A stretch of DNA of 13,961 nt from Bacillota bacterium (GTDB taxonomy: Bacteria; Bacillota_A; Clostridia; Lachnospirales; Bianqueaceae), in NCBI GenBank assembly GCA_017420625.1, contig JAFOIR010000264.1, forward strand, positions 1-13,961, written 5' to 3'. The notes beneath the pieces are model-generated. The model was not told the origin of the DNA, ran no database searches, and saw nothing but the letters and a program-made list of their open reading frames with translations. Positions 1-11,242 of this stretch are shown here, one piece after another (position 1 is the stretch's first letter; each line of letters opens with the position of its first letter). A program made the position numbers and the translations under genes.

Positions 1-199
1 CGTACTGGTCGGAGCCAATGCGGTCGTGATCGAGGGAGTGCATGTTGGAAAGGGTTCCGTTGTTGCTGCCGGTGCGATTGTGATCGAAGACGTACCGGAG
101 AATGTGGTCGTGGCCGGATGTCCTGCCAGGATCATCAAGGTTAAAGATGAAGGAACCAGTCAGAAGACTGCGTTGGAAGAGGCACTGAGAACGCTATGA
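1..199 (+). CDS. dapH: Tetrahydrodipicolinate N-acetyltransferase, C-terminal end (partial)
   Basis: Only the last 65 codons are present (reading frame from base 2, TGA at 197-199); the 5' part lies outside the window. The visible protein is a left-handed beta-helix tail with hexapeptide repeats ([24 protein letters not shown]) closed by the [12 protein letters not shown] block typical of acyltransferases of this fold, then a short acidic helix ending in LRTL. DapH acetylates tetrahydrodipicolinate with acetyl-CoA in the cytoplasm, the first step of the acetyl branch to meso-DAP and lysine. The assignment to DapH rather than another hexapeptide transferase rests on this tail and on lysA and a deacetylase following directly. 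The stop overlaps the lysA start by 4 bases (ATGA), so the two are probably translationally coupled. Function is inferred from a partial protein plus context. Confidence 0.82.
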
Positions 200-1470
200 G
201 GAAGCAGTTGCCGTTTACAGCTGAAGAAGCCATGAACTTTACGCAAAAATACCCCACGCCGATGCTGATCTATGATGAGCAGGGACTTCGCGAATGTGTG
301 GGAAAAGTCAAACAGGCTTTTTCATGGAATCCGGGATTTCAGGAATGCTTTGCAGTCAAAGCAGCGCCTGTTCCCGGCATCCTTCGGCTTCTGGAAAGTC
401 TGGGCTGCGGAACAGACTGTGCATCCGTCACCGAACTGGAACTGAGCCGCCGGTCGGGCATTCTGGGTGAGAGGATCGTTTTCTCATCGAATGAGACAGC
501 GCCTGAGGAATACGTTCATGCCGTGAAACTCGGAGCTATCATCAATCTGGATGATCTGACACAGGTAGATAACCTGAAACAGGCGCTCGAGGGGACAGAA
601 CTGTCATTCCCGGAGACGATCTGCTGTCGTTATAATCCGGGTCGATTTGACATAAGCAGTGATATCATGGGTCATCTGTACGATTCCAAGTACGGGATGA
701 TGAAGGAGCAGCTTTTTGATGCATATCGGAAGTTAAAAGATTTGGGCGTCAAAAAGTTCGGACTTCATGCGATGCTGCAGAGCTGTTCACTGGATGAGAC
801 GTATTATCCCAAACTCTGTGAAGAATTGTTTCCCCTGGCTGTAGAGATTCGCGAGAAGACCGGCATCACGATTTCCTTTATCGATTTATCAGGCGGGATC
901 GGAATCCCGTATAGGCCGGAGGAAGAACCGGTAGATATCGAACGGATCGGGGAAATGGTTCATGAAGTCTACGACCGGATCCTGAAAAGTGCCGGGATTG
1001 AGGTTTCTCTGTTTACCGAGATGGGACGATTTATCACTGGACCGTATGGATATCTTCTCACCAAAGTCGTTGGACATAAACATATCTATAAGGAATATGT
1101 CGGAGTCGATGCTTCAGCCTGTGATATGATGCGGCCGGCTATGTATGGAGCCTATCACGAGATCCGGGTACTGGGCAAGGAAACCGGTGAAGATGATCAG
1201 ATCGTGGATGTCGTTGGACAGCTCTGCGAGAATAATGATAAATTTGCGATCGATCGGAAACTTCCGAAGACAGAGATCGGAGATCTTTTAGTGATCGGGG
1301 ATTCCGGCGCCCATGGCAGATCTATGGGGTATAATTATAACGGAAGACTCAGATGCGGTGAGTATCTGTTGAGGCCGGATAAAACAATCTGTCAGATCCG
1401 AAGACCGGAAAGTCTGGAAGATCTGTTTGCAACATTCGATATCGATCAAACATTTCAGGAGCAGTTATGA
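196..1470 (+). CDS. lysA: Diaminopimelate decarboxylase
   Basis: This 424-residue fold-III PLP decarboxylase converts meso-DAP to L-lysine and CO2, the last step of lysine synthesis. The PLP lysine is K55 in FAVKAAP. Other family blocks are [12 protein letters not shown] (70-81), the SKYGM phosphate-region block (about 164-168), H191, the glycine loop [10 protein letters not shown] (232-241), E275 with R278 in [14 protein letters not shown], and the partner-subunit active-site Cys in QLCENND (C344-E345). MGYNYNG near 378-383 is the usual C-terminal substrate and PLP contact. Length fits the family. The ATG overlaps the dapH stop (ATGA) and has no strong Shine-Dalgarno of its own, so reinitiation after dapH is likely. 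Its own stop overlaps the next start in the same way. Ornithine/arginine decarboxylases share the fold, but the Cys-Glu motif and context favour LysA. Confidence 0.95.
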
Positions 1471-2633
1471 ATCAGATTGATTGGAAGAAAGAAGCAGCCG
1501 GGATCGGAGAAGAACTCCGGGAGATCAGAAAAGAGATCCATCGTAATCCGGAGATCGGCAATCGTGAATTCAAGACATCTTCACTGGTAGAAAATTATCT
1601 GAATTCATTGGGTATCGAAACGAAACATCTTGCAGGGACCGGCATCGTCGGAGAGCTTATAGGGAAAAAAGAGGGACCTGTTGTGGCGCTGAGGGCGGAT
1701 ATGGACGCCCTGCCGGTGACAGAGCATACCGGATGTGATTTTGCTTCGAGAGTACCGGGAATGATGCATGCCTGTGGGCATGATGTTCATACGACAGCAC
1801 TTCTGGGAGCTGCCAAGTTGCTGGCTGCCCATCGGGATGAACTGCCTGGCAACGTTCGTTTCTTCTTCCAGCCGGATGAAGAAGGAGATGGAGGAGCTCA
1901 GCGAATGATTCAGGAAGGTTGCATGGAAAACGTGAGTGCTGTTTTTGGTGCTCATGTGGATCCTGCGATTCCGGCTGGTCAGATCGGGATCCGTTATGGT
2001 AAATTCTATGCTGCTTCCGATTCCATGGACGTTTTTATTCATGGGAAGAGCGCTCATGGCGCGACCAGGGAACTGGGCATCGATGCGATCGAAGCAGCCT
2101 GCAAAATGATTCCGGAACTTCTGGATCTGCCAAAGATCCTGCTGCCGGAGAAGAGCGCAGTCAGTATCGGCGCGATTCAGGCAGGGACGGTTCGCAATAT
2201 CGTAGCGGATCATGCTGAATTTCACGGGATTATCCGAACCCTTGGCCGCGACAGCCGTGAAAAGCTTTTAAGTGCGCTGAGAGAAAAACTGTATGGTATC
2301 TCCGATGAGATGGGGACCCGGATCGAACTGATTTTGAAACAGCCTGGCAGTGGAATCGTCAACACGGATCCGGAGACTGCCTTGTGTGAGCATACAGCTG
2401 TCTCTCTGTTTGGAAAAGAAAATGTCGTTCTTCTTCAGGAACCCAAGATGATTTCTGAAGATTTTGGGTTCTTTGTAGAGAAATGCGGAGCCGGATGCTT
2501 CTATCACATTGGCGCTGAAAGCCCCTATCCACTTCATTCGGATCATTTTCTCCCGAAAGAAGAAGGAATCGAAGTGGGTGCGGCCATGCATGCCTGTATT
2601 GCGATGAGTTTTCTGGTAGAACATAGTAGATGA
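1467..2633 (+). CDS. M20-family amidohydrolase, probable N-acetyl-diaminopimelate deacetylase
   Basis: A 388-residue metallopeptidase of family M20D. Metal-site blocks are RADMDALP (76-83), HACGHD (H101, C103, H105), the catalytic Glu pair E138-E139 in PDEEGDGG, H163 in AHVDP, and H357 in LHSDHF near SEDFGFF. A lid/dimer domain spans about 180-290, with KSAHG at 194-198. M20D enzymes remove acyl groups from amino acids (hippurate, IAA-amino acids, N-acetyl amino acids). Because it follows dapH and lysA with an ATGA overlap, the likely substrate is N-acetyl-LL-DAP, the role of the B. subtilis enzyme YkuR (also called DapL). AGGAG at 1457-1461, 5 bases before the ATG, supports the start. The family is firm; the substrate is inferred from the neighbours. 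No clear terminator follows, so some read-through into the next gene is possible. Confidence 0.88.
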   Translation: MNQIDWKKEAAGIGEELREIRKEIHRNPEIGNREFKTSSLVENYLNSLGIETKHLAGTGIVGELIGKKEGPVVALRADMDALPVTEHTGCDFASRVPGMMHACGHDVHTTALLGAAKLLAAHRDELPGNVRFFFQPDEEGDGGAQRMIQEGCMENVSAVFGAHVDPAIPAGQIGIRYGKFYAASDSMDVFIHGKSAHGATRELGIDAIEAACKMIPELLDLPKILLPEKSAVSIGAIQAGTVRNIVADHAEFHGIIRTLGRDSREKLLSALREKLYGISDEMGTRIELILKQPGSGIVNTDPETALCEHTAVSLFGKENVVLLQEPKMISEDFGFFVEKCGAGCFYHIGAESPYPLHSDHFLPKEEGIEVGAAMHACIAMSFLVEHSR

Positions 2634-3957: not shown

Positions 3958-4003
3958 ACCTTTATGATCATGGCATCAGGTGTTGGCAGAAAGGAGGAAG
4001 AAG

Positions 4004-5635
4004 ATGAATCAACGTGAAGCAAAACTGGTCCGAAATACGACCATCTTTGTCTGTATCTTCCTTCTGGCCGGGATCCTTCATACATTGGAGGATATCGAAG
4101 CTATTCCTTTTCTTCCAACGCTTTTATTCTGTTTGATTACTATGATTTATCTGGGCCTGGTCATGTTCTGGACGATTTCAGTCCGATACCGGCTTCTTCC
4201 CACCAGAGAAAGGACTTATACCCTGATTGCTGCAGGCTGCATGCTGATGATGCTTCTGATCCGAACAATCAAATATCGGTATTGTGATTCGGTTATTGTA
4301 GACCGGATTCTTTGGTATGCCAGCTATCTGCCGATCATTCTGATTCCGGGTATGTTTGCTTTAACAGCCAGTGAAACTGCCTCTGACCGCCGGAAAAAAC
4401 TCCATCAGCCGATCCTTTGTCTCATTCTGATCCTGATGGCACTGCTGGTCTTTACCAATGATCTGACAAGATGGGTCTGGAAACCGGTCGGAGAAATACT
4501 TACTTCCTATACAGACGATTATACCTATGGCTTCGGCATCTATCTGATCTATGCCGGTATTACATCTCTCTATCTGTACGGACTGCTGATCACGCTGAAA
4601 AGAGCGCTGGCGACGCATTCCTGGCGGGCGATCAGTTCAGTGATCATACTGCCTCTTCTGTATGCCTTTTTACATCTTTCTCTGCCGTATACCGAACGTT
4701 ATCACTATCCGCAGATGTTTCAGTTCTATGAAGTGCACGTATTCGGAATGTTGGCGATCTGGGAGAACTGTATCAGGCTCAGATTATTCCCGTTTAACTC
4801 ACAGTATAAAGTCTTTTTCGAAGATATGGAGCTGCCTACGCTGATCACGGACCGGGCTTTTACTCCGTATTATCAGGCAGCCTGGCACTATTTGATCACC
4901 CGCGATCAACTTAAGAATGCTTTATCGGCACCGGTCTATCCACAGCCGGATATTCGTCTGATGGGTCGAAAGATCCAGGCGGGATATGCCTTCTGGATCG
5001 AAGATGTTGGTGAGATCAATCGTCTCAATCATCAACTGGAAGAAATGCATGAAACGCTTGAGACAGAGAATGATCTGATCGAAGCGGAGCAGCGGCTGCG
5101 GGAAAAACAGGACCGAATCGAACTTCGAAACCGCATCTATGGGATCGTCGCGGAAGAGCTGCTTCCGGATCAGCAGAAAATCAGGGATCAGCTGAACGAA
5201 CTTAGTCCGGATGATCCTAAGTTCAGGGAAAAAATCGCGTATCTAGCTGTTGAACATGCATTTGTAAAGCGAAAATCCAACCTGACTCTGATGGCTGCCG
5301 AAGAGAGTGAAATTGACTTAAGAGAACTGTATCTCGCACTGGAAGAATATGGTAAGTATCTGAATTATCTGGGAATCGAAGTGAGTCTGGAGGCTCATGG
5401 CGGCAACCGGATCAGCAGTTTTATGGCACTTCGGCTTTATGATACGTTTTCAATGGCACTGGACGGTCTGATCGGTAGGATCACCCAGCTGATGATCACG
5501 CTATCTCCCATTGGGATTCGTCTTACCTGTGATCTGGATGAAACGATCCAGATCGCGGAAGCCAGAGTGCCGGTAGAAATCAAGCGAGAGGAAGGACTTT
5601 TGTTCGTCCGGTTGATCGGGGAGGTGATCCGATGA
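4004..5635 (+). CDS. Seven-helix membrane sensor-like protein with degenerate kinase region
   Basis: A 543-residue protein. About seven hydrophobic segments fill the first 225 residues (roughly 12-27, 36-59, 72-87, 102-121, 136-150, 174-196, 209-225), resembling the 7TM sensor region of some Firmicute histidine kinases. Residues about 265-335 look like a weak PAS region (FEDMELPTLITD), then a coiled coil at about 337-378. The remaining 165 residues have no HDxxGH box, no N-box and no glycine-rich ATP loop, so it is probably not an active kinase. ATG at 4004 is chosen because AAGGAGG (3991-3997) sits 6 bases before it; an in-frame GTG at 3980 lies upstream of that site and is unlikely. Its stop overlaps the histidine kinase start. 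It probably senses a signal and steers the kinase, which is an inference. The ligand is unknown. Confidence 0.8.
   Translation: MNQREAKLVRNTTIFVCIFLLAGILHTLEDIEAIPFLPTLLFCLITMIYLGLVMFWTISVRYRLLPTRERTYTLIAAGCMLMMLLIRTIKYRYCDSVIVDRILWYASYLPIILIPGMFALTASETASDRRKKLHQPILCLILILMALLVFTNDLTRWVWKPVGEILTSYTDDYTYGFGIYLIYAGITSLYLYGLLITLKRALATHSWRAISSVIILPLLYAFLHLSLPYTERYHYPQMFQFYEVHVFGMLAIWENCIRLRLFPFNSQYKVFFEDMELPTLITDRAFTPYYQAAWHYLITRDQLKNALSAPVYPQPDIRLMGRKIQAGYAFWIEDVGEINRLNHQLEEMHETLETENDLIEAEQRLREKQDRIELRNRIYGIVAEELLPDQQKIRDQLNELSPDDPKFREKIAYLAVEHAFVKRKSNLTLMAAEESEIDLRELYLALEEYGKYLNYLGIEVSLEAHGGNRISSFMALRLYDTFSMALDGLIGRITQLMITLSPIGIRLTCDLDETIQIAEARVPVEIKREEGLLFVRLIGEVIR
5620..5629 (+). promoter_or_regulatory. 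Extended perfect Shine-Dalgarno for the histidine kinase gene
   Basis: GGAGGTGATC matches ten consecutive bases of the complement of the 16S rRNA 3' end, far longer than the usual 5-6. The GGAGG core lies 7 bases before the ATG at 5632. It is embedded in the last codons of the upstream sensor gene, so both strong initiation and ATGA coupling serve the kinase. Confidence 0.8.
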
Positions 5636-6906
5636 TACCTGTCGCTGATCTACTGGGAAGCAAACTTCATCATCTGCTGCAGATCATACTGCTGATCTAT
5701 CTGACAGGGCAGCTGTATTTATTGATTCTGACTGTCCGGCTTCATCGTCCCCAAAAGTTCTGGATCGTGATGACAGCCTTCTTTTCTCTGGGGTGGTTCA
5801 TCCTTGCCATGTTGTCCGATATTTCTTACAGGTTTGGCAAAGAGACTTTCTTTATGGTCAGGGCATTCGAGGGTTTGCCATGGGGTTTTTATCTGGTTTA
5901 TGAGATCCTGATGATGGGATATCTTTTTGCCGCATTTCTGAATTGCCACCGGTTCATCTATACTCATCTGACGGATTCTTCGATCAAGGAAACGATTGAC
6001 CTTCTTCCGGCCGGCATCCTGATTTCTCTGCCGGACGGTACGGTGGAGATGAGCAATGTCCAGATGAATGATCTGTGCGAAGAACTGACGAACCGACCGC
6101 TCACAAATGCCAATCAGTTCTGGAAAACAATAAAAGCATCCGGTGAATCGGGTCAAAGCCATGTACTGATCCGATCCGAGGAAGACGATGATGCTTTGCT
6201 GTTTTCCAGAAGTCCGATCATGATTGAAAAACAGGAATATGTGCAGATCCTCGCGACGGATGTGACGGAGCGGTATCAGGCCATCGAAGAGGTTCAGGAG
6301 AAAAACCGTCAGCTCAGAGAGTATCAGAACCGAATGAAAAGCTATCAGCAGCTGGCAGCACAGACGATTCGCTCGGAGGAGATTTTAAATGCCAGAAGGA
6401 TCGTTCATGATCAGGAAGGCCATGCACTCCTGACTGCCCGTTACTATCTGGAGCATCCCGAAAATGTCAATCCGGAAGCTCTGCTTCTGATGCTGCGTCA
6501 GACAAATGAGTTCTTGCTTCGGGAGGCGGAGGATACAGAAGAATCGGATACCGATCCGATCGAAGATGCTGCTTCAATGGCTGGTGCGATCGGTGTCAAA
6601 ATCGTAATCAGCGGAGATCCGCCCACTGATCCTAAGCTGCGCAGTCTGGTCGGATATGCTATGAGGGAATGTGCCGCCAATACGGTCAAACATGGACATG
6701 GAGATTTCTTGTTTGTCTCGACGGAACGCTTCCCGGAGGGCCTGAAGGTCCGTCTTATCAACAACGGAATCGAACCGACAGAACCAATTCGCGAAAGCGG
6801 AGGACTATTGTCTCTTCGTCATATGACGGAAGAAGCAGAAGGAAAAATGATCATTGAAACAGAACCTTCCTTTACCGTGGAGCTGACGCTTCCGGGACCA
6901 GGATGA
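5632..6906 (+). CDS. Membrane PAS sensor histidine kinase (HisKA_3 / NarL-partner type)
   Basis: A 424-residue kinase. Hydrophobic segments lie at about 13-36, 43-63 and 83-104. A PAS-like domain (about 117-215) starts LLPAGILISLPDGTVEMSN, followed by a coiled coil (about 213-245). The phosphoacceptor box is ARRIVHDQEGHALL with H259, the HDxxGH pattern of kinases that pair with NarL/LuxR-type regulators. The ATPase domain has an N-box in RECAANTVKHG (E346, N350, H354) and a shortened nucleotide loop NNGIEP followed by ESGGLLSLR. It should autophosphorylate at H259 and pass phosphate to the regulator encoded 24 bases downstream. The start overlaps the sensor-like gene's stop (ATGA) and has a perfect extended ribosome site. 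The first membrane block is shorter than a 7TM sensor, suggesting that the upstream protein supplies part of signal detection. The signal is unknown. Confidence 0.88.
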   Translation: MIPVADLLGSKLHHLLQIILLIYLTGQLYLLILTVRLHRPQKFWIVMTAFFSLGWFILAMLSDISYRFGKETFFMVRAFEGLPWGFYLVYEILMMGYLFAAFLNCHRFIYTHLTDSSIKETIDLLPAGILISLPDGTVEMSNVQMNDLCEELTNRPLTNANQFWKTIKASGESGQSHVLIRSEEDDDALLFSRSPIMIEKQEYVQILATDVTERYQAIEEVQEKNRQLREYQNRMKSYQQLAAQTIRSEEILNARRIVHDQEGHALLTARYYLEHPENVNPEALLLMLRQTNEFLLREAEDTEESDTDPIEDAASMAGAIGVKIVISGDPPTDPKLRSLVGYAMRECAANTVKHGHGDFLFVSTERFPEGLKVRLINNGIEPTEPIRESGGLLSLRHMTEEAEGKMIIETEPSFTVELTLPGPG

Positions 6907-6930
6907 ACAACATAGGCAGGAGGTATGGAA

Positions 6931-7668
6931 ATGGCCGAGAGAATTAAAGTAGTCGTTGTAGATGATCAGAATGTTGCACGCGGCTTTTTTGAAATGCATA
7001 TCAAAACTTCGCTTCGGTATGAGCTGGTCCGGTCACTGCCAGCTGCTGATCTGGCCATCACTTATCTGGAACAGCATCCGGTGGATCTTGTGATCATGGA
7101 TATCGTCATGCGGTACGGCATGGATGGGCTGAGCGCAGCGGAGCAGATCAAAAAGAGATTCCCGCAAGTCAAGGTCATCCTGGTAACGTCCATGGCAGAG
7201 GCCACATGGGAGAAAAGAGCGAAGATAGCAGGAATCGAAAGTTTCTGGTACAAGGAATACAGTGAAGAACCGCTGATCGAGATCATGGACCGGACGATGA
7301 ACGGCGAGTCCGTTTATCCTTCTGATGCACCGGTTGTACAGTTTGGAAAGGTGACCACACAAGAGCTGACAGAGCGTGAACTGGATGTGCTGCGAGAGCT
7401 GACGTCCGGTGCAACCAATGAAGAGATCGCTCAGCATCTTTTTATTTCAGTCAATACTGTCAAAAGGCATATCCAGAATCTGATGGACAAATCCGGCTAC
7501 AAGAATCGTCTGGCCCTTGCCATCAATGCGACGTCGCTCGGACTCGTTGTCAGCGATGAGGAAATCGGAAAAAATAAGGAGGCTTCTTACGGAAGCCTCC
7601 TGCCACAACAGGTTTTGAATTTTCGACCGGAACCACAGGGGCACGCATCGTTGCGTCCGATCCCCTGA
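6931..7668 (+). CDS. NarL/LuxR-family response regulator
   Basis: This 245-residue cytoplasmic DNA-binding regulator has a receiver domain at 5-125 with acidic pair D11-D12, phosphoacceptor D57 (DLVIMDIVM), T86 and K108. A LuxR-type helix-turn-helix follows at about 145-205 (LTEREL, ATNEEIAQHLFISVNTVKRHI). It is the evident partner of the kinase just upstream. The ATG at 6931 is chosen: AGGAGG (6918-6923) lies 7 bases before it but only 1 base before the alternative ATG at 6925. The domain should end near residue 208; the last 35 residues or so are an unusual tail encoded by DNA that is also the hairpin and the antisense of the neighbouring gene's SEC-C end. The convergent coding overlap is 82 bases (7587-7668). 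Targets are unknown; autoregulation or control of the nearby minus-strand operon is possible but untested. Confidence 0.92.
   Translation: MAERIKVVVVDDQNVARGFFEMHIKTSLRYELVRSLPAADLAITYLEQHPVDLVIMDIVMRYGMDGLSAAEQIKKRFPQVKVILVTSMAEATWEKRAKIAGIESFWYKEYSEEPLIEIMDRTMNGESVYPSDAPVVQFGKVTTQELTERELDVLRELTSGATNEEIAQHLFISVNTVKRHIQNLMDKSGYKNRLALAINATSLGLVVSDEEIGKNKEASYGSLLPQQVLNFRPEPQGHASLRPIP
7567..7600 (-). terminator. Rho-independent terminator of the minus-strand operon
   Basis: GGAGGCTTC (7578-7586) and GAAGCCTCC (7592-7600) form a perfect 9-bp stem with a 5-base loop. Read on the minus strand, the hairpin is followed by TTATTTTTTC (7576-7567), a proper U-tract; on the plus strand no T run follows. 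The radical SAM stop codon at 7587-7589 lies in the loop. The same bases encode residues of the response regulator tail. Confidence 0.8.
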
Positions 7669-8840
7669 TATTTCTTTCGTTCCTCCCGTATGAGGATCTC
7701 CATCATCTGGGAGGGATTTTTCTTTTCTGAAGACAGCTGCATGGCCCGTTTCAGATGGGGAACGGCATAATCAAAGAAGGCAACTAACCCGGGACACAGG
7801 AGATACTGACCGGGTTCACCGTCTTTGGAAAGAGCACTGCGATCCTTCGGACAAGCACCGCCGCAGAGGAAAAGATATGGACAGCGATGGCATTCAGCAG
7901 TGAGCTTTGTTTCCTTCGAAAGACCGAATTCCGTCTGAAAATCCGAAGCAAGAATCGATTGAAAGTCATCTGTGAGGACAGAGCCGACCCGATGCGCCGG
8001 ATCGACAAAATGATCGCAGCTGTAGATTCCACCGTCTTTTTCAACGATCAGGACATTACCGCATGTCTTTCCCAGCATACACAGGTTTGGTTTCTGACCT
8101 GCGAGAGCCAGACTCATCTCTGAGAAAAGCTGAATTTCTGTACGACCCAGATCGTGGAAGAACCATTCAGCAAAAACATCCTTGAGAAATTCTCCATATG
8201 CTTCCGGCGTCACAGATTCGGCAGAGATACCATCTTCAGTATGGACTACGATCGGGATAAACTGCATCCAGCCTGTCTCAAAATCCCGGAGTGCACGGTA
8301 TACTTCTTTTCCGTGTGCAGCGGTCATGGCATTGACAGTGCATAAAAGGTCCGGACGGATCCCGACTCCTTTCAGACGATTAATGGCGGCAGCTGTTTTC
8401 TCGTATGTCGCGCCGCCGAGCGGATCTTTCCGGTAGGTATCATGACAGAACTTCGTTCCGTCGATGCTGATACCTACGTCAAAGTGATGCTGTGAAAGAA
8501 ATGCGCACCATGCTTCATCCAGTAGAACACCGTTGGTCTGAAGATTATTCCAGATCTCGCAGTCCGGTCGTTCCGTCAGATAGCGCTCCTGAAGCCGGAT
8601 AACTTTTTCATAGAACGAAAGGCCTGCAAGCGTAGGCTCTCCGCCATGCCAGGTAAAGGAGATTACCGGACCGGGACAGGAACGGATATAGCTCTGGATA
8701 AATGACTCCAAGACCTCATCACTCATGACGGGTGATGAGGTCTTTTCGTTTCCTGCATGGAGGTAGTAGCAGTAGGTACACTGCATGTTGCAGGCCGAGC
8801 CGATGGGTTTGGCCATCACGACAAATGGCTTTGAACTCAT
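7587..8840 (-). CDS. Radical SAM/SPASM enzyme, anaerobic sulfatase-maturase type, with SEC-C tail
   Basis: A 417-residue protein. The radical SAM cluster motif is C17-x3-C21-x2-C24 (ACNMQCTYCYY), followed by TWHGGEPTL (63-71). The SPASM cysteines C254, C260, C275, C317, C320, C326, C330 and C349 fall almost where they do in the characterised clostridial anSME, and D276 in YSCDHF matches its proposed catalytic Asp. These enzymes oxidise a Cys or Ser of a sulfatase to formylglycine without oxygen. Residues about 397-414 are a zinc-binding SEC-C motif (CPCGSG, then CC). The ATG overlaps the upstream hydrolase stop (ATGA) and lacks a clear ribosome site, so coupling is likely. No sulfatase is in the window, so the substrate could be elsewhere or a different peptide. 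Family confidence is high; substrate confidence is moderate. Confidence 0.9.
   Translation of the reverse strand: MSSKPFVVMAKPIGSACNMQCTYCYYLHAGNEKTSSPVMSDEVLESFIQSYIRSCPGPVISFTWHGGEPTLAGLSFYEKVIRLQERYLTERPDCEIWNNLQTNGVLLDEAWCAFLSQHHFDVGISIDGTKFCHDTYRKDPLGGATYEKTAAAINRLKGVGIRPDLLCTVNAMTAAHGKEVYRALRDFETGWMQFIPIVVHTEDGISAESVTPEAYGEFLKDVFAEWFFHDLGRTEIQLFSEMSLALAGQKPNLCMLGKTCGNVLIVEKDGGIYSCDHFVDPAHRVGSVLTDDFQSILASDFQTEFGLSKETKLTAECHRCPYLFLCGGACPKDRSALSKDGEPGQYLLCPGLVAFFDYAVPHLKRAMQLSSEKKNPSQMMEILIREERKKYQGIGRNDACPCGSGRKFKTCCGRRLP
7682..7727 (+). terminator. Weak candidate terminator for the signalling operon
   Basis: CCTCCC (7682-7687) and GGGAGG (7709-7714) can pair across a 21-base loop and are followed by ATTTTTCTTTTC (7716-7727). 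It starts 14 bases after the response regulator stop, the right place for a plus-strand terminator, but lies inside the radical SAM gene (antisense to codons about 372-387). The stem is short and the loop long, so this is only a candidate. Confidence 0.35.
8710..8744. repeat. 13-bp perfect inverted repeat inside the radical SAM gene
   Basis: AAGACCTCATCAC (8710-8722) and GTGATGAGGTCTT (8732-8744) are perfect complements around a 9-base loop. In the mRNA it would form a stable hairpin over codons 33-44. On the plus strand it is followed by TTCGTTT, so together with the end of the stem it gives a TTTT run and resembles a terminator for antisense transcripts. The two roles cannot be told apart by reading. 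Confidence 0.7.
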
Positions 8841-9601
8841 TTCAGATACTTGTCAAAGAAGGTTATCGTCTTGTTGAAGCTGTCCATCGCCTGTTCCTGA
8901 CGATACATGGGTTTGTCATAATACCAGATTCCATGACCGGCTCCGTCATAGCGATGGAACTCATAGTTTTTGCCGCATGCTTTCAGACGATCTTCCAGGA
9001 CATTGACATCTGCAGGGGTCGGACTGAAGTCATCGTTGCCAAAGATGCCTAAAAGCGGGATCTCGAGCTGTTCGGTATAGTCAATCGGTGCGACCGGACG
9101 CTGAGGGGAAAGGGACTCTTTGGGTGCAACGACACCGCCGCCCCAGCAGTCAACGACTGCGTCAAAGCCAGGTACCGTGCAGGCAGCCAAAAAAGCATGA
9201 CGTCCGCCGGAGCACATACCGATGACACCGACTTTACCGTTTGATCCGGGCTGACCTTTCAGAAAGTCCAGACAGCCTGCTGTGTCAGCCATGACTGTAC
9301 TGTCATAGGCTCCGCCGCCTTCACGGCTGCGCATGGCGACTTCCGGAGGTGTACCAGTACCGGCATCCTGATAGATGTCCGGGCACATAACACTGTAGCC
9401 ATGCTCTGTAAAGCGGCGGGAAGTCTCGCGGCACCATTCATCCCAGCCGGGCATATGAGGGATGAGGACGATACCGGGGGTGGGTTTGTCCGTGATCGGA
9501 TGGGAATAATACGCGCGAACCTGTTTGCCGTCATGACCTTTGAAGGCAACGGTTTCAGCGATCATTCCCGAGTAATCACCCGTGTTGAAGCTGTTCCACA
9601 T
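8837..9601 (-). CDS. Dienelactone-hydrolase-family alpha/beta hydrolase
   Basis: A 254-residue cytoplasmic hydrolase with no signal peptide. The nucleophile is C130 in GMCSGGRHA, the Cys form of the elbow typical of dienelactone hydrolases; the acid is D190 or D191 in GNDDFSPTP and the base H223 in GAGHGI. The oxyanion region is about 44-53 (IVLIPHMPGW). The family cleaves lactone or ester bonds; true dienelactone substrates are unlikely to be the only ones in an anaerobe. ATG at 9601 is chosen because AGGAGG (complement of 9610-9615) lies 8 bases before it; a longer open frame reaching 9934 has no ribosome site and would cover the gene upstream. It follows the small DegT-like gene after 61 bases and is coupled to the radical SAM gene by ATGA. 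Why it belongs with an aminotransferase and a maturase is unclear. Confidence 0.88.
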   Translation of the reverse strand: MWNSFNTGDYSGMIAETVAFKGHDGKQVRAYYSHPITDKPTPGIVLIPHMPGWDEWCRETSRRFTEHGYSVMCPDIYQDAGTGTPPEVAMRSREGGGAYDSTVMADTAGCLDFLKGQPGSNGKVGVIGMCSGGRHAFLAACTVPGFDAVVDCWGGGVVAPKESLSPQRPVAPIDYTEQLEIPLLGIFGNDDFSPTPADVNVLEDRLKACGKNYEFHRYDGAGHGIWYYDKPMYRQEQAMDSFNKTITFFDKYLK

Positions 9602-9662: not shown

Positions 9663-10073
9663 TCAGATCTGATCGAGCATCTCGAGAAGTTCAGCTGCCT
9701 GCCATTCGGTGATCCGCATATCACCGCCAACGACGGTTTCCTCTGACAGGTCAACGGTTGCACCGATTCCCGGCCGGTGACCGCAGTGATGAATCTGATA
9801 AAAGATCTCATACAGGGATTCATCCGGAGTGAGGATCGCGCCGGCAAAACCGAAATCCCGGAGAGTGACTGGATTTTTTTCACTGCATAATGCCATGCGT
9901 TTCGCGACATCCAGGATCTCTTCAGCAGCGGCATAGGAATAGGTCAGAACGGCAAACAGCGGTTGATCCCTGCTTAGTTTTTCACAGAGTTTTTTTGCCG
10001 CCAGATCTTCCATGGGTCCACAGGTACCCCAGATACCGGAAAAGAGGATATGGCTCAGTCTTTCCTGATTCAT
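9663..10073 (-). CDS. Small DegT-like protein lacking the PLP-binding core
   Basis: 136 residues. By eye, residues about 11-60 (SGIWGTCGP, then FAVLTYSYAAAEEIL) resemble the N-terminal part of DegT/StrS aminotransferases (GTxGP, then the SGTAALE region). Residues about 77-136 (AGAILTPDESLYEIF, HHCGHRPG, GGDMRITEWQAAELLEML) resemble the region just after the catalytic lysine. The roughly 130 residues between, including the PLP aspartate and lysine, are missing, as is the C-terminal domain, so it cannot be a stand-alone aminotransferase. It has a good ribosome site (AAGGAGG, complement of 10082-10088) and overlaps the full DegT gene by 4 bases (ATGA), which argues that it is translated rather than debris. 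It may be a decayed paralogue or a partner subunit. The alignment is my own reading, not a search. Confidence 0.65.
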   Translation of the reverse strand: MNQERLSHILFSGIWGTCGPMEDLAAKKLCEKLSRDQPLFAVLTYSYAAAEEILDVAKRMALCSEKNPVTLRDFGFAGAILTPDESLYEIFYQIHHCGHRPGIGATVDLSEETVVGGDMRITEWQAAELLEMLDQI

Positions 10074-11182
10074 CCGAAATACCTCCTTTCCAGCGTCTCA
10101 AAGATCTCCAGCATCTGATCCAGCGTATCTTTGTCACTGAGTAAAGTGAACTGTTCCAGCCACAGACCTTCCGCATAGGAAGCCCTTTCACAGACGGAAA
10201 GCGGAGAAAGATCAATGTCAGATGCGATCAGTTTCCGGGTCGTTTCGGAACGAACGGAAGGCAGACTATATAGAGGCGCATAACCGGAAAGAAGCGGAAG
10301 TCCCATTTCGTGGGCATCCCGGATCAGATTCTGACGAGTCTTTCCCTCACCTTCGAGCTCTTCAACCCTGGTTCGTAAAACAAACAGATGATAAGCATCG
10401 AGAGTGATTCGTTCATCTTGTTTCATCGGACAGACCAGACGGCTTTCTTTCAGTGCTTCATTCAGATAACGGGCGCTCTTTGATCTTTTCTCCATTTGAT
10501 CAGGTAATCTGCGAAGCTGACTGATCAGCAGAGCGCAGGAGATTTCATTCAGCCAGTGATTGTTCTTTTCCAGAAGAGATAGTAAGCGCTGGTAGAGTTC
10601 CTGGTCACAGGTCGTGATCATCCCACCTTCGCCGCTGGTCAGATTTTTCGTGTTCTGGCAGGAAAAAGAAGCACAGGTGCCATAGGATGCGATATCCCTG
10701 TCTCTCCACTTAGCGCCGACAGCCTGTGCAGCATCCACAATCAGATAAAGATCGTGCGCTTTGGCCAGCTTTTCGAATGCATCCAGATCAAACGGACGAC
10801 CGGCCACCGCAACAGCTACGATCGCTTTGGTTTTTGGTGTGATCTTTTTCTCTGTTTCAGAAGGAGAAAGATTATAGGTATCGGGCTCGATATCAGCAAA
10901 GACAGGCGTTGCACCGGTATAGACGATGGAAGAGAATGTAGCAATAAAGGTATAGGGTGGAAGAATGACTTCATCGCCAAGACCTATACCAAGGGCAGTT
11001 AGAATAAGTTCCAGACTGATGGTTCCGTTTGCGACCGGCAGTACATAGGGCGTCTTGGTAAACTCGCTGAACACTTTTGCAAATTTCTTTGCCATGGGTC
11101 TTGAAGGATCCTTAAGATCAGCCTGTCGGATGAACATAAGATCCGACTCATCCGAGATCGGCCATTTTGGAAAAGAGAGCAT
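10070..11182 (-). CDS. DegT/DnrJ/EryC1/StrS-family aminotransferase with shortened mid loop
   Basis: A 370-residue PLP enzyme of the family that transaminates nucleotide-linked sugars and similar ketones. Visible blocks are the cofactor phosphate site ANGTISLE (51-58), GDEVILPPYTFIAT (69-82), GATPVFADIEPDTYN (90-104), the PLP aspartate D150 in IVDAAQA, and K179 in NTKNLTSGEGG. After the lysine it departs from the family: the usual loop of about 20 residues and the block like NYRMTEFQAA are reduced to NNHWLNEISCALL (207-219), with Trp where Arg is normal. That Arg usually contacts the cofactor or substrate across the dimer. AAGGAGG (complement of 11188-11194) lies 5 bases before the ATG. It is first in a four-gene minus-strand operon and overlaps the small DegT-like gene. 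Substrate unknown; no sugar nucleotide genes are nearby. Confidence 0.88.
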   Translation of the reverse strand: MLSFPKWPISDESDLMFIRQADLKDPSRPMAKKFAKVFSEFTKTPYVLPVANGTISLELILTALGIGLGDEVILPPYTFIATFSSIVYTGATPVFADIEPDTYNLSPSETEKKITPKTKAIVAVAVAGRPFDLDAFEKLAKAHDLYLIVDAAQAVGAKWRDRDIASYGTCASFSCQNTKNLTSGEGGMITTCDQELYQRLLSLLEKNNHWLNEISCALLISQLRRLPDQMEKRSKSARYLNEALKESRLVCPMKQDERITLDAYHLFVLRTRVEELEGEGKTRQNLIRDAHEMGLPLLSGYAPLYSLPSVRSETTRKLIASDIDLSPLSVCERASYAEGLWLEQFTLLSDKDTLDQMLEIFETLERRYFG

Positions 11183-11212: not shown

Positions 11213-11242
11213 ATTATATCATAGCAGGCGTGGTTTTGGCGA
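11213..11242 (-). promoter_or_regulatory. Extended -10 promoter of the minus-strand operon
   Basis: On the minus strand, TGATATAAT (complement of 11221-11213) is a perfect -10 box with the TG extension. TCGCCA (complement of 11242-11237) is a four-of-six -35 at 18 bases. Transcription would start near 11206, about 24 bases before the DegT start. Confidence 0.7.

Follow-up and report, generated by a model that had tools for sequence, protein, structure and literature searches.

Two overlapping genes in the 13,961-nucleotide contig of a Bacillota bacterium analysed here (JAFOIR010000264.1; the whole stretch is called the window) are best read as encoding an active-site-sharing heteromeric aminotransferase of the DegT/DnrJ/EryC1/StrS (DegT) family, a reading to which we assign a probability of roughly 0.8: The larger protein, A, would be the catalytic subunit, and the smaller one, B, would supply parts of the active site that A has lost. 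The basis for this reading is the complementarity of the two sequences in two elements, their conservation and co-localisation, the existence of A-B fusions, the size range of the B proteins and the predicted DegT-like fold of B. A physical A:B complex and the completion of the active site in trans are what these features suggest.

Both open reading frames lie where the original prediction had put them, and both the ATGA by which they overlap and the residue numbers (D150, K179 and Trp210 in A; R120 in B) were right. The profile search that it had proposed places both proteins above the curated PF01041 cut-off of Pfam (19.8 bits): A reaches 258.6 bits and has its pyridoxal phosphate (PLP) residues, i.e. 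the NGT motif, D150 and K179, whereas B barely passes with 20.3 bits in a match confined to profile positions 180-236. The PLP core with the Asp and the Schiff-base Lys is missing from the 136-residue form of B, and judged by its sequence B is a non-catalytic DegT relative and by itself no aminotransferase.

The elements that set the two proteins apart became visible in a comparison with 19 single-chain relatives that were fetched with A (from archaea, Armatimonadetes and others, 31-39% identical). The A proteins of the window and of three close relatives, L001 (water buffalo rumen), L002 (RUG12885) and L003 (goat omasum), lack the SGxWGxxG stretch near the N-terminus as well as the loop running into the NYRMTEFQ block. 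The WG loop and the mid loop with its NxR block are traits of the nearest single-chain relatives, i.e. of a subfamily, and not of PF01041 as a whole. B carries both elements, as SGIWGTCGP and HHCGHRPGIGATVDLSEETVVGGDMRITEWQA. This bears out the idea of a large protein without the mid loop next to a small one that has no PLP core and holds a version of the missing loop and Arg block. The GTxGP-like N-terminal region that had been predicted for B is present; the loss of the corresponding WGxxG stretch from A had been overlooked. The proposed replacement of the block Arg by Trp applies to the window but is not general: L001 and L003 have Arg, and L002 has a gap or Cys. Since this site varies among near relatives, A-type proteins and ordinary DegT proteins, the distinguishing marks of the A family are the loop and the WG stretch and not that residue.

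Columns were counted in an alignment that comprised 122 A rows, 38 B rows (17 longer, 21 short) and 22 single-chain rows, with the sets chosen by hand from the fetched sequences. The PLP Lys and Asp are present in all 122 A rows; the Asp is Asn in 17/17 longer B rows, and only one of these has Lys in the Lys column (P0151, in a different context). The Trp-Gly pair of element 1 occurs in 38/38 B rows, while among the 122 A rows Gly is found in 5 and Trp in 30. The Arg of the CGR motif is kept in 17/17 longer B rows and is His in 18 of the 21 short ones. The single-chain group has 102 conserved columns, 15 of them spanned by the two elements: B retains six that A has lost, all within the elements; the 34 that A retains and B has lost all lie outside them. 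In a tree of 67 rows, which omits the short B proteins P0156 and P0157 and the B forms of 136-190 residues, A (27 rows) and longer B (13 rows) are each split off by a branch with 100/100 support, so that the longer B proteins form one lineage; the short forms are probably akin to them, as judged by motifs and alignments.

As a plain alternative, the original prediction had offered a decayed tandem duplicate, of which B would be a functionless remnant. B does derive from a DegT protein, most of which is gone, but a remnant would hardly have 18 homologues (99-178 residues; just one is named in the database, as 'hypothetical protein'). The alignment of 17 sequences including the window contains 33 invariant columns, mostly within the two elements; P0007 and P0017 were excluded from it as chimera-like proteins from contigs of 506 and 651 bases. 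P0017 (99 residues) joins a foreign start (PF02645) to a B end and is probably a misassembly. Moreover, the small gene is neither broken nor absent in the relatives: It is intact and follows A with the same ATGA in 3/3 of them (L001-L003), and the putative ribosome-binding motif GAAAGGAGGTA is found in the last codons of A in 4/4 loci including the window. The pairwise ratios of nonsynonymous to synonymous divergence (dN/dS) among these four loci, a check also proposed beforehand, are 0.12-0.25 for B and 0.08-0.19 for A, rough values as dS exceeds 1 in 5/6 pairs for either gene. Finally, natural A-B fusions, the confident and compact model of B and the full-length dead DegT protein that elsewhere takes its place contradict decay, and a remnant is thus scarcely tenable.

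The fusions and the full-length partners place B in a wider range of forms. Three fusions of 593-605 residues are among the best 120 of 341 proteins found with A. In G561 and G621, the A gene keeps Lys and Asp, reads YYGSFG in the WG stretch, has a shortened loop and Asn for the Arg, and, with the ATG of MTILKS taken as the start, overlaps a full-length second DegT gene (335 residues) by 26 bases. In this second protein other residues stand in for the catalytic Lys and Asp, and the NGT motif is disrupted; SGRWGTISP and NCGRSP...VGGNMRIAEWQ are retained. A search with it returned B relatives of 322-370 (n=13), 293-295 (n=4) and 234-236 (n=2) residues, and the shorter B forms have about 190 (in the fusions), 167-178 and 136-137 residues. 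The B forms thus make a graded size series from 322-370 down to 136-137 residues, and the steps of shrinkage suggested by it are read from the sizes rather than from a reconstructed order of events. Two single-chain DegT proteins, L092 and L093, with WGTLGP, CGR, NARMTEWQ, Lys and Asp, perhaps resemble the protein from which A and B descend; they score 225 and 223 bits against the B profile (the same genes as loci L099 and L100). A tandem of DegT frames in L088 (1197-3549, minus strand), both with NARMxEW and the upstream frame truncated at the contig end, may represent a pair that predates the split of functions.

DegT enzymes are generally regarded as homodimers with two shared active sites, and within such a dimer each subunit's NxR block extends to the partner's PLP. 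We suggest that A holds the PLP, the Schiff-base Lys179 and Asp150, and that B stands in for the second subunit of an ordinary homodimer, giving across the interface the WGTxGP loop and the CGHRPG...GGDMRITEWQ loop and Arg block that would line the active site. If the NxR block does reach the PLP of the partner, then an A:B dimer has exactly one complete site, made of the core of A and the elements of B, which leaves the second site open to decay in either protein and fits the direction of loss in each. The pair may have arisen from duplicated DegT genes, with A shedding the parts supplied by its partner and B shedding first its own PLP site and later much of its fold. Going by the family, one might guess that the pair transaminates a keto sugar or keto cyclitol. 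An interface position of the active sites in fold type I aminotransferases is described in PMC9309667.

One could also imagine that B binds A as a regulator, stabiliser or ligand sensor and that A homodimers do the chemistry. The invariant loop of B could indeed be ligand-binding, some A proteins retain the Arg and part of the loop, and SPT1 of serine palmitoyltransferase was once, early on, hypothesised to be regulatory (PMC6148460). However, the A proteins P0019-P0023 and L001-L003 have neither element, precisely the ones that B keeps, so that an A homodimer would there be without them altogether, and we regard such an accessory role as unlikely.

Known systems show both likeness and difference to the proposed pair. 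BtrR, AHBA synthase, ArnB and GDP-perosamine synthase are homodimers that share the fold and the PLP residues of A; they carry the PLP core and the partner-facing parts in one chain, whereas in A/B these are divided over two genes. The full-size subunit SPT1 belongs with SPT2 to another PLP family, and B, unlike SPT1, has lost most of its fold. Nevertheless, serine palmitoyltransferase works much as we propose for A:B: According to PMC6148460, SPT1 is without the PLP lysine and the SPT1/SPT2 heterodimer presumably has a single active site. Within the DegT family there is one solved precedent of this kind, the heterooligomeric aminotransferase of Serratia sp. ATCC 39006 (PDB 8Y96, 8Y97, 8Y98; 8Y96 and 8Y98 released on 2024-12-18), which by fold match likewise consists of a large DegT chain and a small DegT-like chain, the latter being larger than B. 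Its chain 8y96_D was absent from the sequence-search matches listed (in two of these searches, the best 60 of 75 and the best 60 of 76), and a literature search that left out most subscription papers found no paper on a heteromeric DegT enzyme. The model of B is a confident, compact, DegT-like predicted fold, and VIA-align, run on the candidate list of Foldseek, gave DegT matches for it including 8y96_D. A fusion modelled as a single chain reached a predicted template modelling score (pTM) of 0.83, with a 19-row alignment chosen since its B rows fell on the B half, and its A half matches 8y96_A/B by fold.

Where B occurs, it keeps company with A. A B profile was run over 86 loci (nine repeat loci excluded, many cut by contig ends, some B proteins being copies or near-copies of profile members), and in five of them an open reading frame fits B better than A, always adjoining an A-type gene; with the window included, B stands beside 6/6 A-type genes whose neighbourhood is in view. 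If B acted alone or with another partner, and adjacency meant shared regulation only, it would fit that A by itself is a confident DegT protein; the three fusions, the overlap in 4/4 loci and the invariable place of B beside an A-type gene in those five loci make this very improbable. The A+B system is rare among genomes. A search with B in the order of G001 was positive in 3/392 genomes, none of them new. A search with P0137 was positive in 4/392 genomes of that order, in 6/391 of the class, two new A+B pairs included, and in 2/31 of the order of G561, neither of them new. At an E value of 1e-45 the B profile matched 1/398 genomes of the phylum (G561) and 4/371 of the class, or two once the single-chain G403 and G440 are set aside. 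Nine genomes have 7-17 PF01041 matches each.

Several observations weigh against an active site shared between A and B. The enrichment of complementary columns (P 3.7e-6) rests on elements that were named after looking, and taken over all 102 conserved columns the two proteins do not avoid losing the same ones, with 24 lost in both and 22 expected (Fisher P 0.88). The block Arg is retained in 51 of the 122 A rows, as is the Trp of element 1 in the 30 rows given above, and many A proteins of 398 residues keep part of the loop; conversely, the ordinary single-chain DegT proteins L046 and L057 have Asn at the block Arg position. Foldseek alone found nothing at E <=0.001 for the B model in PDB or among viral models, and the regions of the fusion model with the lowest certainty include the Lys loop (198-206) and the B loop (562-572). 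The 6/6 count excludes the A-type proteins of the protein database, whose neighbours are not visible.

If A and B do share an active site, the pair is a natural dissection of a DegT enzyme: It suggests which residues a partner must provide and allows asking what a single-site DegT can do, and the size series from 370 to 136 residues together with the fusions would portray a pseudoenzyme subunit trimmed towards its minimum. As far as our searches show, the novelty lies in how extremely the dead subunit has been reduced, in the size range and in the fusions. It is tempting to speculate, though we would put this at somewhat below an even chance, that in a Bacillota lineage with several members from the rumen the DegT site has been split permanently, with a dead subunit trimmed to 136 residues that solely completes its partner's site, the smallest half-aminotransferase in this analysis and independent of the Serratia enzyme. 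Since B homologues are practically unnamed in the databases, the large gene expressed alone might well give an inactive enzyme.

Features of the A/B region of the window (positions on the forward strand)
Feature	Positions	Strand	Remarks
A, loop-less DegT/DnrJ/EryC1/StrS aminotransferase, 370 residues	10070..11182	-	proposed catalytic subunit (D150, K179)
B, core-less mini-DegT, 136 residues	9663..10073	-	proposed active-site-completing subunit
ATGA, A stop / B start overlap	10070..10073	-	conserved in window, L001, L002, L003
Shine-Dalgarno-like site GAAAGGAGGT for B	10081..10090	-	within final codons of A; position by counting
Element 1 in B, SGIWGTCGP	10014..10040	-	Trp-Gly in 38/38 B rows
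Element 2 in B, HHCGHRPGIGATVDLSEETVVGGDMRITEWQA	9696..9791	-	includes R120; Arg in 38/38 B rows
Former place of element 1 in A, lost (IRQADLKDPSRP)	11096..11131	-	
Former place of element 2 in A, lost (LLEKNNHWLNEIS)	10538..10576	-	
Dienelactone-hydrolase-family protein	8837..9601	-	third gene of same-strand run; same place in L001-L003
Radical SAM protein, anaerobic sulfatase maturase family (TIGR03942)	7587..8840	-	fourth gene; same place in L001-L003
Promoter-like site TCGCCA-18-TATAAT	11213..11242	-	TG before second hexamer; pattern match only, 7 found in region, 3.9 expected
Terminator-like hairpin, then T run	7577..7601	-	pattern match only, 5 found in region, 3.9 expected

The gene order A, B, dienelactone-hydrolase-family protein and radical SAM protein is common to the window and L001-L003, with the hydrolase recognised by its start in L001 and L003 and the radical SAM protein by eye in all three relatives. 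In the window the radical SAM gene overlaps the preceding hydrolase gene by 4 bases, and its product scores 402.6 bits against TIGR03942 (cut-off 349.45). Upstream, TldD/PmbA-like genes diverge from the run (by Pfam in the window and L001, by eye in L002 and L003). In G561 the pair follows genes for a BadF-type ATPase and a SIS-domain protein and precedes one for a ceramidase-family protein, with G621 looking alike by eye; between this setting and that of the window and L001-L003 we found no common gene that names a substrate. In the single-chain relatives L090, L092 and L093, the next frame reads by eye like a Gfo/Idh/MocA oxidoreductase.

Elsewhere in the window, positions 196-2633 (plus strand) hold a gene for a LysA-like decarboxylase, whose 278.5 bits fall short of the equivalog cut-off of 297.9, and one for an M20-type amidohydrolase, with a 4-base overlap between the two. 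Positions 3980-7668 (plus strand) contain two sensor-like open reading frames with a 4-base overlap and then a LuxR-type response regulator, by eye a likely two-component system.
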